Position numbers and translations under genes: made by a program. From Umezawaea tangerina (GTDB taxonomy: Bacteria > Actinomycetota > Actinomycetes > Mycobacteriales > Pseudonocardiaceae), in the NCBI RefSeq assembly GCF_003002815.1, contig NZ_PVTF01000011.1, forward strand, positions 186,001 to 250,000: DNA of 64,000 bases. Direction: 5' to 3'. Every line of letters starts with the position of its first letter. The first letter of the stretch is position 1. The notes below the pieces were generated by a model that saw only the letters and a program-made list of their open reading frames with translations, was not told where the DNA came from and ran no database searches. Positions 26,719-37,190 of the stretch are shown piece by piece.

Positions 26719-26739
26719 ATGGATCGCGATCGAAGATGA
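26719..26739 (+). other. Six-codon leader ORF overlapping the FAAL-PKS start
   Basis: An ATG at 26719, preceded by a GGGGAAGG ribosome site, opens the peptide MDRDRR. Its TGA overlaps the ATG of the megasynthase (ATGA at 26736). The megasynthase has only a weak site of its own, so translation may be coupled through this leader. Confidence 0.4.
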
Positions 26740-29700
26740 GCGGCACCCGTTCAGCAGGACCCGAGACGCTCGCCATGTTGTTGCGCGCCAACGTCGAGCG
26801 GGCGCCCGACGCGCTCGCCTACCGGTTCGTCGGCGACTCCGGCGCCAGTCGGACGTGGACCTACCGCCAGCTCGACGCGCACGCCCGCGCCGTCGCGGTG
26901 CGACTGGGTCAGGAAGGACTGCGCGGCAAACCGGTCCTGCTGCTGCACCAACCGGGTCTGGACTACGTCGGGGCCTTCCTCGGCTGCCAGTACGCGGGTG
27001 CCGTCGCGGTGCCGGCCTACCCGTTCGACACCAACAGGTTCGGCCAGTCGGCGCGGCGGTTGGCCGCGATGGCCCTGGACTGCTCGGCGACGCACGCGCT
27101 GAGCACGGCGGACTTCGTCCGGTACGCCGAGGCCCACGGGCGCGAGAGCGCCGTCGTCGGGCTCGGCGGGATGCGTTGGCTGGCAACGGACGCGCTGGAC
27201 CCGTCACTGGCCGACCGGTGGGACGATCCGGGGACCGACCGGGACTCGGTGTCGTTCCTGCAGTACACCTCGGGGTCGACCTCGACCCCGAAGGGGGTCG
27301 TGGTCAGCAACGACAACATCCTGCACAACCTGGACGCCATCCACCGCAGGCTCGGGCACGACGAGGACTCGGCGATCGTGTCCTGGCTCCCGCCCCACCA
27401 CGACCTCGGTCTGATCGGGTGCATCCTCAACGCGCTCCACGGCGGCGTGCCGCTGCACTTCATGTCCCCCATGGCCTTCCTGCGACGGCCGCTGCTGTGG
27501 CTGGAGACCCTGTCGCAGACCGGCGCCAGTACCGCGGGCGGACCGAACTTCGGCTACGAGCACTGCCTGCGCAAGATCACCGAACAGCAGCGGGACACCC
27601 TCGACCTGTCCCGGTGGAAGCACGCGCTCAACGGCGCGGAGCCGGTCCGGGCCGGGACGCTGGACCGCTTCGCCGAGTTCTTCGCGCCGTGCGGCTTCGA
27701 CCGCCGCGCCTTCGCACCGTGCTACGGGCTCGCGGAGGCGACCCTGATGGTGACGGCGACCGAACCCGCGGTGGAGCCCGTGCAGCGCGCTTTCGACGCG
27801 GCGACGGTCGCCGAGGGCGCTCCGGTCCCGGCGACCCACCAGACCGCCCGCTGCACCCGGTTCGTCGGCTGCGGTGCCGCCGCCGACACCGTCTCGGTCG
27901 CCATCGTTGACCCGGACACCGGCGACCGCGTCGTCCCCGGCCGCATCGGGGAGATCTGGGTGGCGGGACCGAGCGTGGCCCGTGGCTACTGGGGCGACGA
28001 CGAGGCCACCCGGCGGACGTTCGGGGCCGTCCTCGCCGACGAGCCGGGTGTGCCGCACCTGCGCACCGGCGACCTCGGGTTCCAGCACGAGGGCGAGCTG
28101 TTCGTCGTCGGCCGCGCCAAGGACGTCATGGTCCTGCAGGGGAGCAACCACCACCCCCACGACGTCGAGCTCACGGTGGAGAAGGCGGTCGGCGCGTCCA
28201 GACCCAACAGCGTCGCCGCGTTCTCGACCGACGTGGACGGTGCCGAGGAGATGGTGGTCGCCCTCGAGGCCGCGGGCGACCAGCTCCACGACACCGACGG
28301 TCTGCTCGCGACGGTGCGCGCGCGGATCGCGGCCGAGCACGAGGTCTCGCCGCACGCCGTCGTGGTGCTCCGCCCCGGAGCGCTGTCCAAGACGACCAGC
28401 GGCAAGCTGCGAAGACGGGCGTGCGCCGAGGACTTCCGCGCCTTCGCGCTCCCCGTCGTGGCGGCGAGCGTGGTGCGACCCTCCCCGCGGGACACCGGTA
28501 CGGCTCCGTCGAGCACGACCTCGGTGTTGGAGGCGCTGGCGGAGACCACCGGGCGGACCGACCTCGCGGGCCGCGGCTTCGCGGAGATCGGCCTGGACTA
28601 CTCCGGACTGCTCGAAGTGGTCCGGACCGTCGACGGGGGAGCGGGGTCGGCCCCGCCGCTCGGGCCGCTCCTGGTCGACCCCCGAGTGGACGCACTGCTG
28701 TCGTTGTGGCACAAGGGGAAGCAGGACGACGTTCCGGAGCCGGTCGAGATCCGGCAGTGGCTCACGGCGCGGATCGGGGACATGCTCGGCCTGCCCGCCA
28801 CCGCGATCGACACCGCGGTGCCGCTGACCGCGGTGGGCGTGGACTCGCGGCAGCTGGTGACCCTCGTCGACGAGCTCGGCGCGTGGCTCGGCCGGGAGGT
28901 GACGCCGGGTCTGGTGTTCGACCACCCGACCATCCGGGACCTGGCGCGGCAGATCGGCCGTCCGGCACCGGCACCGGCGGCCGCCACCACGACGGTCGGC
29001 CGCACCGAGGAGCCCGTCGCGATCGTGGGCATCGGCTGCCGGTTCCCCGGCGCACCCGACGTCCGCTCCTACTGGCAGCTGCTGCTGGACGGCCGCGACG
29101 CCATCACGGAGGTCCCCCCTCAGCGCTGGGACGCCGGTTCCACCGGGGCTCCCCGCCACGGCGGTTTCCTCGACCACGTCGACCGGTTCGACGCCCGGTT
29201 CTTCGGCGTCTCCGCCCGCGAGGCCCGGCGGATGGACCCGCAGCAGCGGCTGCTGCTCGAGGTCGCCTGGCAGTGCCTGGAGGACGCCGGGATCGCCCCG
29301 GCCGACCTCGCGGGCGGCGACGGGGGCGTGTTCGTCGGCATCAGCAGCAACGACTACGCGACCCTGCGGACGGGTGACCACGACGAGCCCGACCTGTACA
29401 CCGCCACCGGCAACGCCCACGCGGTCGCGGCCAACCGGCTGTCCTACCTGCTCGACCTGCACGGTCCGAGCATCGCCCTGGACACGGCCTGCTCCTCGTC
29501 GCTCACCGCGGTGCACATGGCCTGCCAGAGCCTGCGCGAACGCGAGTGCGGCCTCGCCCTCGCCGGTGGTGTCAACCTCATGCTGTCGCCGACGCTGACG
29601 ACGGCCTTCGCGAAGGGGCGGATCCTCGCGCCGGACGGCCGCTGCCGGGTGTTCGACGACGACGCCGACGGCTACGTGCGCGGCGAGGGCGCGGGGATCG

Positions 29701-35747: not shown

Positions 35748-35750
35748 GCG

Positions 35751-37190
35751 GTGGTCCCCCTGACCGACGCACGACGCCGTTGGGCGTTCCTCACCGTCAT
35801 CGCCACGACGTTCATGACGTACCTGGACAACAACATCGTCAACGTCGCCCTCCCGTCCATGCGGCGCGACCTGCACCTGGGCGTGTCCGGGCTCGAGTGG
35901 GTGGTGAGCTCCTACGTGCTGGTGTTCGGGTGCCTCCTGCTGGTCTGCGGCAGGCTCGCCGACCTCCACGGCAACCGCGTGCTCCTGCTGGTGGGCATGG
36001 GGGTCTTCACCCTCGCGTCGCTGCTCGCCGGGCTGGCCTGGCACCCGGCCGTCCTGATCGGCGGTCGGGCGGTGCAGGGCTTGGGTGCGGCCGCCGCCAC
36101 CCCGGCCGCGCTGGCCGTCATCCAGGCCCTCTACCCGGTCGAGCGGCAGCGGAACCGGGCGATGGGGATCTGGGGTGCCGCGGGCGCGCTGGCGCTGGCG
36201 GTGGGACCGCTGCTCGGGGGCGTGCTCAGCGAGCACGTCGGCTGGGCGTGGATCTTCCTGATCAACGTCCCGATCGGCGTGGCGGTCCTCGTGGCGGGGG
36301 CCTGGTCGGTCGGGCCGCCCGCGGCGGACCGGGTGGGCGCACGGGTCGACCTCGCCGGGCTGGCCACGTCGGGAGGTGCGCTGTTCGCCCTGACCTACGC
36401 GCTGATCCAGGGCGGCCAGGCGGGCTGGGGCTCACCGGTCATCGTGGGCTGCCTGGTCGTCGCGGTGCTCGGCGGCGCGGCGTTCGTGGTCGTCGAGCTG
36501 CGCGGCACCGACCCGATGGTCACCCCCTCCTGGTTCCGCGACCCCGTGTTCGGCGGAGGGATGGTGGCCGCGTTCATCTGGGCGTTCGGCATCTACGGGA
36601 TCTACTTCTTCACCTCGCTCTACCTCCAGGGCGTGCTCGGGTTCTCGCCCACGCGGACCGGGCTCGTGTTCGTGCCCATGGCACTGCTCGTGATCATCGG
36701 CTCGGTGCTCAACGACCGGGCGGCGCGCCGGTTCGGCGCGCACCGGTCCGTCGCCTGCGCGATGGTCGTGATGGCCGCGGGCATGGCGGGCGGCCTGCTG
36801 CTCGGCACGGACGCGGGTTTCGCGCAGGTCACCGCCGTGCTGGTGGTGATGGGGATCGGGGCCGGGTTCACCACGTCGTTGCCGACCACGATCCTCGGCG
36901 TCATGCCCGCGGGCAGGGCGGGTGTCGCCTCCGCGATCTTCAGCACCGTGCGCCAGACCGGCGGCCTGATCGGCATCACCGCCATCGGCGCCGTGCTGGC
37001 CGCCGGGGAGAGCCGGGCGCGGCGGACGGGGAGCACGGCGGACGGCGCGTTCGTCGAGGGTTTCCACCTCGGCCTGGTCATGTCGGCCGCCCTGGTCGCC
37101 GTCGGCGGTGTCGTCGCCTACTTCGCCCTGCGCCGGGTGGCGCCGACCGGGTCGCGGCCGGGCCGGGCGGTCGGTGCGTCGAGCACCTGA
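35751..37190 (+). CDS. DHA2-family (14-TM) MFS exporter
   Basis: This 479-residue protein has the signatures of the EmrB/QacA group: FMTYLDNNIVNVALPSM (motif D1 region) in TM1, GRLADLHGNR (motif A) and GPLLGGVLSEHVGWAWIFLINVP (motif C plus the conserved WxWxFxxNxP). About fourteen hydrophobic segments are counted. It begins at a GTG three bases after the kinase-like gene. Exporters of this family are usual last genes of biosynthetic clusters, and this one probably exports the amino-lipid product. Substrate unknown. Confidence 0.9.
   Translation: MVPLTDARRRWAFLTVIATTFMTYLDNNIVNVALPSMRRDLHLGVSGLEWVVSSYVLVFGCLLLVCGRLADLHGNRVLLLVGMGVFTLASLLAGLAWHPAVLIGGRAVQGLGAAAATPAALAVIQALYPVERQRNRAMGIWGAAGALALAVGPLLGGVLSEHVGWAWIFLINVPIGVAVLVAGAWSVGPPAADRVGARVDLAGLATSGGALFALTYALIQGGQAGWGSPVIVGCLVVAVLGGAAFVVVELRGTDPMVTPSWFRDPVFGGGMVAAFIWAFGIYGIYFFTSLYLQGVLGFSPTRTGLVFVPMALLVIIGSVLNDRAARRFGAHRSVACAMVVMAAGMAGGLLLGTDAGFAQVTAVLVVMGIGAGFTTSLPTTILGVMPAGRAGVASAIFSTVRQTGGLIGITAIGAVLAAGESRARRTGSTADGAFVEGFHLGLVMSAALVAVGGVVAYFALRRVAPTGSRPGRAVGASST

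Follow-up and report, generated by a model that had tools for sequence, protein, structure and literature searches.

A RedL-type megasynthase outside the prodiginine pathway in Umezawaea tangerina and a proposed route to an exported 2-alkylpyrrole or pyrroline lipid

What kind of lipid is made by an actinomycete megasynthase that joins fatty acid activation, polyketide extension and an alpha-oxoamine synthase (AOS) in one polypeptide? The gene is located in a 64,000-nucleotide stretch of Umezawaea tangerina (referred to as the window; contig C11, NZ_PVTF01000011.1, positions 186001–250000), from a genome of 10.68 Mb in 34 contigs with a completeness of 99.49% and a contamination of 4.06%. It is followed by genes for two short-chain dehydrogenases/reductases (SDR1 and SDR2), a DUF6206 protein and an exporter of the major facilitator superfamily (MFS). 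A first-pass annotation proposed a sphingoid-like pathway for these genes. We favor a different reading, with a probability of roughly 0.77, in which a RedL-type megasynthase outside the prodiginine pathway supplies an exported, possibly phosphorylated 2-alkylpyrrole or pyrroline lipid. A small ring-bearing lipid is probable here, rather than a sphingoid base, because a RedL-type enzyme is found without the remaining pigment pathway and together with a kinase-like gene. The RedL enzyme type itself is known; the setting, with RedH, RedN and RedX not found and DUF6206 present, is new.

The domain order and the active sites can be read directly from the sequence. Pfam recognizes AMP-binding/fatty-acyl-AMP ligase (FAAL), phosphopantetheine-binding (PP-binding), ketosynthase (KS), acyltransferase (AT) and class I/II pyridoxal phosphate (PLP) enzyme (Aminotran_1_2) domains, and its listing contains no thioesterase (TE), ketoreductase, dehydratase or enoylreductase domain for this protein. 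The single polypeptide with two acyl carriers (ACP1 and ACP2), a malonyl-type AT, a PLP lysine at residue 1981 and no TE, as described in the first-pass annotation, is therefore confirmed. The AT carries an HAFH motif, which we take to indicate the malonyl type. Only one PP-binding stretch was given by Pfam, but the second carrier (GFDSL, with Ser1679) is evident in the sequence and is aligned in the relatives. A degenerate carrier-like stretch (residues 612–632), located before ACP1, has a tyrosine instead of the serine, and this tyrosine is present in 29 of 34 RedL sequences. The catalytic residues are intact, and in a comparison with 34 related full-length proteins almost every motif position agrees. 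The order FAAL-ACP-KS-AT-ACP-AOS in a single protein is that of RedL, the enzyme of undecylprodiginine biosynthesis in Streptomyces and other actinomycetes.

One genome from each of 84,980 species was scanned for the ACP2-AOS part by means of six short peptide patterns. This confirmed 417 relatives, and the best 80 of these were compared. The closest are from Lentzea kentuckyensis (L033, 86% identity) and Amycolatopsis dendrobii (L034, 77%), followed by 42 loci from Streptomyces, Actinomadura, Catenulispora and the like at 61–74% (L035–L074, L077 and L078), two divergent relatives at 51–52% (L075 and L076), and 34 further AOS genes at 43–52%. The domain order is identical in the 42 loci, with 52–74% identity for each large domain. 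The gene names RedK, RedJ, RedG, RedN and RedP used here are our assignments from position, domain content and the general order of the red genes. RedK immediately follows RedL in all 42 loci, and a RedJ-like TE is found in all of them. RedH is present in 41 (the contig of L061 ends before it, and in L042 and L065 it is partial), and RedN is located upstream in 36, with an identity of 61% or more, the other six contigs starting too near. The RedH of S. klenkii (L037) passes the NCBIfam cut-off (1662.6 bits, cut-off 1350). With these neighbors and this RedH, the 42 loci are prodiginine clusters, and the window protein is classed by sequence as a RedL-type megasynthase because its close relatives sit in them. 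An excerpt of one report describes redL and redK fused into one open reading frame (ORF) in strain MBK6 (PMC8102152).

The phylogeny supports this assignment. In a tree of 121 AOS sequences, the window enzyme lies inside a RedL clade of 47 (SH-aLRT support 100), which consists of the window, its two close kin and 44 sequences from prodiginine (red) loci; RedN is distant. The window pairs with Lentzea (support 98) and then with Amycolatopsis (100). The trees differ in where this trio belongs. In the quick AOS tree it is nested within the pigment RedLs, next to those of Actinomadura and Catenulispora (87), whereas the approximately unbiased (AU) test and a concatenated tree are compatible with a sister position. 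The AU test, with 60 of the 121 sequences, does not reject the trio as sister to the other 44 and finds this arrangement slightly likelier (p-AU 0.727). The concatenated tree of 38 sequences (three of 41 were incomplete and dropped) sets the trio apart from the other 34 with a support of 80, as rooted on the single long branch of L075.

A loop in the AOS domain provides a second mark of kinship. It has a Thr-Pro pair in the window, L033 and L034, in all 42 RedL proteins and in both divergent ones (L075 and L076), and in none of the 74 remaining AOS sequences. Of the 38 RedN sequences, 28 have Ser and 10 have Cys at this position, in every case with Arg next to it, and the eight members of an actinomycete KS-AT-AOS group all have Ser/Ala-Arg. 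Two Kibdelosporangium sequences and the last 26 sequences have Ser-Arg. The Thr column presumably corresponds to Thr83 of 5-aminolevulinate synthase (ALAS), as equated through an alignment with serine palmitoyltransferase (SPT) and the ALAS sequence. This Thr83 directs amino acid specificity, according to a section of PMC4525017. The Thr-Pro pair is a firm sequence marker of RedL kinship, and it lends moderate support to glycine as the partner of the predicted AOS.

A ring formed as in RedL but with alanine or serine as the partner is an unlikely alternative; the product would then be a hydroxypyrrole with a 5-methyl or 5-hydroxymethyl group, in line with the half reaction of RedN/PigH. AOS enzymes do vary in their amino acid. 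RedN and PigH also take a beta-ketoacyl carrier as substrate and close a ring, and PigH/RedN convert serine and a beta-ketothioester to a hydroxybipyrrole methanol, as a part of PMC11188435 states. However, these serine-using enzymes fall far outside the RedL clade, have the Ser/Cys-Arg loop and lack FAAL, KS and AT, while all three members of the window's group have the RedL-type loop.

The surroundings of the window gene are different from those of RedL. SDR1, SDR2, DUF6206 and the MFS exporter are found in none of the 42 RedL loci, and RedK, RedJ, RedH, RedG, RedN and RedP are all absent nearby in the window and in Lentzea. The whole cluster is found again in L. kentuckyensis, with the order unchanged and 70–87% identity for each part, and it is thus not a chance assembly. 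A. dendrobii retains the RedL/RedK/RedJ core (for 2-undecylpyrrole) in order: RedK (66–67%) directly follows RedL and is followed by a RedJ-like TE (47–48%) and then by DUF6206 (53%). An MFS gene (57%) and another SDR are located divergently upstream. DUF6206 is positioned here where prodiginine loci presumably continue to RedI and RedH. The first-pass annotation linked the neighboring genes to the megasynthase; this holds within the three genera, for DUF6206 and the exporter in all three and for SDR1 and SDR2 in two, but not for the 42 RedL loci.

Genome-wide searches gave the same picture. No protein in the three genomes scores above the RedH cut-off (best pieces 283.4, 287 and 237.6 of 1350 bits), and weak matches of this kind are also found in all 14 control genomes. 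The best RedN match in the three genomes has 41% identity. RedX/PigJ has no match in them at E 1e-60, whereas both of the red-locus genomes searched have one. The window, Lentzea and Amycolatopsis thus form, as far as these searches reach, a RedL subgroup without detectable RedH, RedN and RedX. Active-site residues are retained in all three genera. In a sample of 390 genomes of the family, an AOS of this subgroup (77% identity or more) is found in three, the same three that have DUF6206 (two of them were equated with L033 and L034 by match identity and place). Any AOS match at E 1e-110 is found in 28 of the 390, comprising the three of the subgroup, a single genome with an L075-type match (62%, partial length) and 24 at 44–52%. 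Two other listed genomes of the window's genus have neither DUF6206 nor the subgroup AOS, and the distribution of the cluster is therefore patchy.

In the proposed pathway, the FAAL would adenylate a free fatty acid and load it onto ACP1. The KS would extend the acyl chain once, with malonyl from the AT and ACP2, to 3-ketoacyl-ACP2. The AOS would condense this with glycine, with loss of CO2, and release a 1-amino-2,4-diketone, which is expected to close to a 4-keto-2-alkylpyrroline (a hydroxypyrrole tautomer). The ring ketone would then be reduced, by one or both SDRs in the window and Lentzea and by RedK in Amycolatopsis. The reduced ring may lose water to give a 2-alkylpyrrole, or it may remain a 2-alkyl-hydroxypyrroline or -pyrrolidine. 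DUF6206 probably uses ATP to phosphorylate this product or an intermediate. Export of the final product would fall to the MFS protein. The chain length, the role of each SDR and of DUF6206, and the exported product are our proposals, while the use of glycine, ring closure and reduction are carried over from published work on RedL and RedK, for which Mo et al. (2008) is reportedly the primary paper. In that chemistry, as summarized in portions of two later papers, RedJ frees dodecanoic acid, RedL turns it into 4-keto-2-undecylpyrroline, and reduction and dehydration by RedK yield 2-undecylpyrrole (PMC12654105); a beta-ketomyristoyl thioester and glycine are joined in a PLP-dependent reaction that releases CO2, followed by cyclization (PMC11188435). 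Release by decarboxylative condensation with an amino acid in the presence of reductases, as envisaged in the first-pass annotation, agrees with this chemistry. Its further point, that the beta-keto group is carried into the product, agrees as well, and in RedL this ketone enables closure of the pyrroline (parts of PMC12654105 and PMC11188435). Ring closure is expected in the window pathway because the KS-derived beta-ketone is retained.

Several points weigh against this reading. A 2-alkylpyrrole offers a kinase no obvious target group, which implies either another product or another role for DUF6206. RedK is missing from the window cluster and L033, and the nearest model to SDR1 is that of 3-ketodihydrosphingosine reductase (KdsR), so the reduction may differ. 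Cyclizing ALAS enzymes carry Ser at the Thr83 site and yet use glycine, according to a section of PMC4525017. With 251.6 and 255.3 bits, the RedX matches of the red-locus controls stay under the 900-bit threshold of the model, whose power as a probe is therefore low. Gene absences in Lentzea are less firm, as its genome is rated 92% complete.

DUF6206 (PF19709, function unknown; 257 bits) is the sole Pfam match of the fourth protein of the operon, which the first-pass annotation called kinase-like. Gly33, Gly35, Glu36, Lys53, Gln106, Asp149, Gln151, Asn154 and Asp166 are invariant in all 11 aligned DUF6206 proteins, and we take the glycine loop, the lysine, the Asp-x4-Asn spacing and the later metal-binding aspartate to be a kinase motif. 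The residues therefore agree with the annotation, but no database label does. A permissive Pfam search of six DUF6206 proteins returned DUF6206 and one chance match and no kinase family, and a sequence search of the PDB gave one chance match. Among 50 listed PDB matches of the AlphaFold model, 46 are kinase-type and four are glutamate dehydrogenase, none with E<=0.001; these matches count little, as the model is poor (mean pLDDT 48.6). We class DUF6206 as kinase-like and probably active.

The family is rare among the relatives of U. tangerina, with one of 397 genomes in a sample of the order and 23 of 396 in a sample of the phylum, 22 of them outside the class. Among 10 of these 22 loci, DUF6206 is directly beside a class-III PLP aminotransferase on the same strand in nine (L123–L131; for example L130:7660-10223 and L124:7472-9761), and L132 lacks this partner. 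The partner was recognized by PF00202 in five loci and by similarity in the other four, and the pair may combine a kinase with a phospho-lyase or transaminase. In these nine loci from other Actinomycetota the neighbor is an aminotransferase, whereas in the window it is an oxoamine synthase; PLP partners that act on amines would fit a DUF6206 that phosphorylates an amine-bearing alcohol. A more specific form of the pathway, which we regard as rather unlikely, has the alkyl-pyrroline reduced to a 2-alkyl-hydroxypyrroline or -pyrrolidine, phosphorylated by DUF6206 and exported, and this ring-lipid would be a new branch of RedL chemistry. If true, the product would be a cyclic counterpart of the sphingoid phosphates, and DUF6206 would have its first assigned function. 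A literature search found no paper naming DUF6206.

The two SDRs stand in place of RedK in the window and Lentzea. RedK is an extended SDR (Epimerase/3Beta_HSD), whereas SDR1 and SDR2 are classical SDRs, and neither has a match in the RedK loci at E 1e-10. SDR1 is proposed to replace RedK functionally. Its best NCBIfam model, KdsR, is also that of its Lentzea counterpart (251.4 and 258.3 bits, cut-off 400), and this match would equally well be explained by a KDSR-like enzyme that acts on a ring ketone.

The KdsR match is also the best argument for a sphingoid-like pathway built on a polyketide synthase (PKS), in which the AOS would use serine (or alanine), a KDSR-like SDR would reduce the ketone and the kinase would phosphorylate the amino alcohol, as in SgaAB(C) of Pseudomonas. 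PKS-derived bacterial sphingolipids do exist, with a KDSR homolog proposed (a portion of PMC12134224), the PfSgaAB(C) system likewise combines PKS, AOS and KDSR-like SDR, and the solved structures nearest to the AOS by sequence are SPTs. We nevertheless consider this pathway improbable. The AOS groups with RedL in the tree and by its loop. It falls below the cut-offs of all three SPT models (NF047600, 298.7 of 640 bits; NF047599, 253.9 of 500; NF047603, 201.5 of 670), its best AOS-type model being bioF (343.0 of 426.45 bits), and SDR1 falls below the cut-off of KdsR. Moreover, a KS without reductive domains leaves a beta-ketone that is foreign to a sphingoid base. SgaB is encoded by a separate gene, is near-exclusive for serine and leads to sphinganines (part of PMC12134224). 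L034 has RedK adjoining the megasynthase, and the nearest model to its SDR is not KdsR but mycolate reductase (190.1 bits, cut-off 380). The sphingoid pathway of the first-pass annotation was rejected on these grounds, and for FAAL-PKS-AOS genes in general the clade of the AOS should be checked before a sphingoid function is read from them. A literature search found no paper joining FAAL, PKS and SPT in Streptomyces.

A split or decaying prodiginine pathway, with the bipyrrole half elsewhere or lost, would fit the RedL kinship and the RedK and TE kept in L034, but it is very improbable, as RedH, RedN and RedX were not found in the three genomes within the limits of the searches, and the retained active sites and the common new DUF6206 and MFS genes point to a working, different pathway. 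A complete prodiginine cluster was rejected for the same missing genes.

RedL is described as the source of one half of the prodiginine pigments. Three genera of one family keep an intact RedL, with the other half of the pathway not detected, and alkylpyrrole or pyrroline lipids may therefore be final products rather than pigment precursors. Alpha-alkylpyrroles are described in an excerpt of PMC11331545 as known from just a few examples, and no title among the listed matches of a literature search has a stand-alone RedL pathway. The link of DUF6206 to a defined small-molecule pathway also provides a route to its substrate.

The five genes are on one strand and almost without gaps, forming a tight operon (Table 1). 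The ORF of the megasynthase spans 26664–33137, with the likeliest start at the ATG at 26736. The start of SDR1 overlaps the end of the megasynthase gene by four bases (GTGA), and the close or overlapping placement of the SDR and DHA2 exporter genes is as first annotated. The GC contents at the three codon positions are 0.68–0.75, 0.46–0.55 and 0.95–0.96 for the five genes. A divergent regulator gene is a possible regulator of the cluster. No upstream gene of its size was picked in L033 or L034, where no search was aimed at it.

Table 1. Positions of the operon genes, the megasynthase domains and the divergent regulator in the window.
Feature	Position	Strand	Basis or remark
RedL-type megasynthase FAAL-ACP-KS-AT-ACP-AOS, 2133 aa	26736..33137	+	Domain matches, tree, residues
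Fatty-acyl-AMP ligase domain, Lys557	26784..28442	+	Family-match span
Acyl carrier domain 1, Ser704	28755..28952	+	Pfam match and residue
Ketosynthase domain, Cys919	29010..30101	+	Pfam match and residue
Acyltransferase domain, HAFH motif, Ser1366	30561..31487	+	Pfam match and residue
Acyl carrier domain 2, Ser1679	31698..31880 (limits approximate)	+	Alignment; not in Pfam list
Alpha-oxoamine synthase domain, Lys1981, His1873, Thr1816-Pro RedL-type loop	32076..33107	+	Pfam, tree, loop alignment
SDR1, classical short-chain reductase	33134..33970	+	Nearest NCBIfam model KdsR, below cut-off
SDR2, classical short-chain reductase	33997..34836	+	Nearest model PRK06197, below cut-off
DUF6206 kinase-like protein	34857..35747	+	PF19709; Gly33, Gly35-Glu36, Lys53, Asp149-x4-Asn154, Asp166
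DHA2-family MFS exporter	35751..37190	+	TIGR00711, 232.9 of 230.2 bits
SARP (Streptomyces antibiotic regulatory protein)/AfsR-type regulator (BTAD, NB-ARC, TPR), divergent to operon	23648..26698	-	True start uncertain

Other AOS loci in the scan have different arrangements. L075 (Prauserella) and L076 (Pseudopropionibacterium) are divergent prodiginine-like loci, with RedH-like (44–47%), RedN-like and TE matches and no RedK match. L079, L082, L084, L089, L091, L092, L094 and L110 form an actinomycete clade of their own, with KS-AT-ACP-AOS and without a FAAL match, and AOS matches in its identity range are found in 24 further genomes of the family sample. In L081, L085–L088, L090, L093, L095–L105 and L109, from Planctomycetota and Cyanobacteria, a FAAL gene is located shortly upstream of the AOS gene, with no KS or AT match between the two; these pairs are possible candidates for sphingoid-type pathways. 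In L104 (Gemmatimonadota), a KS-like match is located farther from the FAAL/AOS pair.

Further natural-product genes are found near the operon in the window. Positions 2–4480 (+) hold the last part of a modular type I PKS (KS-AT-KR-ACP), and an MFS gene followed by a nonribosomal peptide synthetase protein (A-PCP-C) is at 9079–13760 (+).

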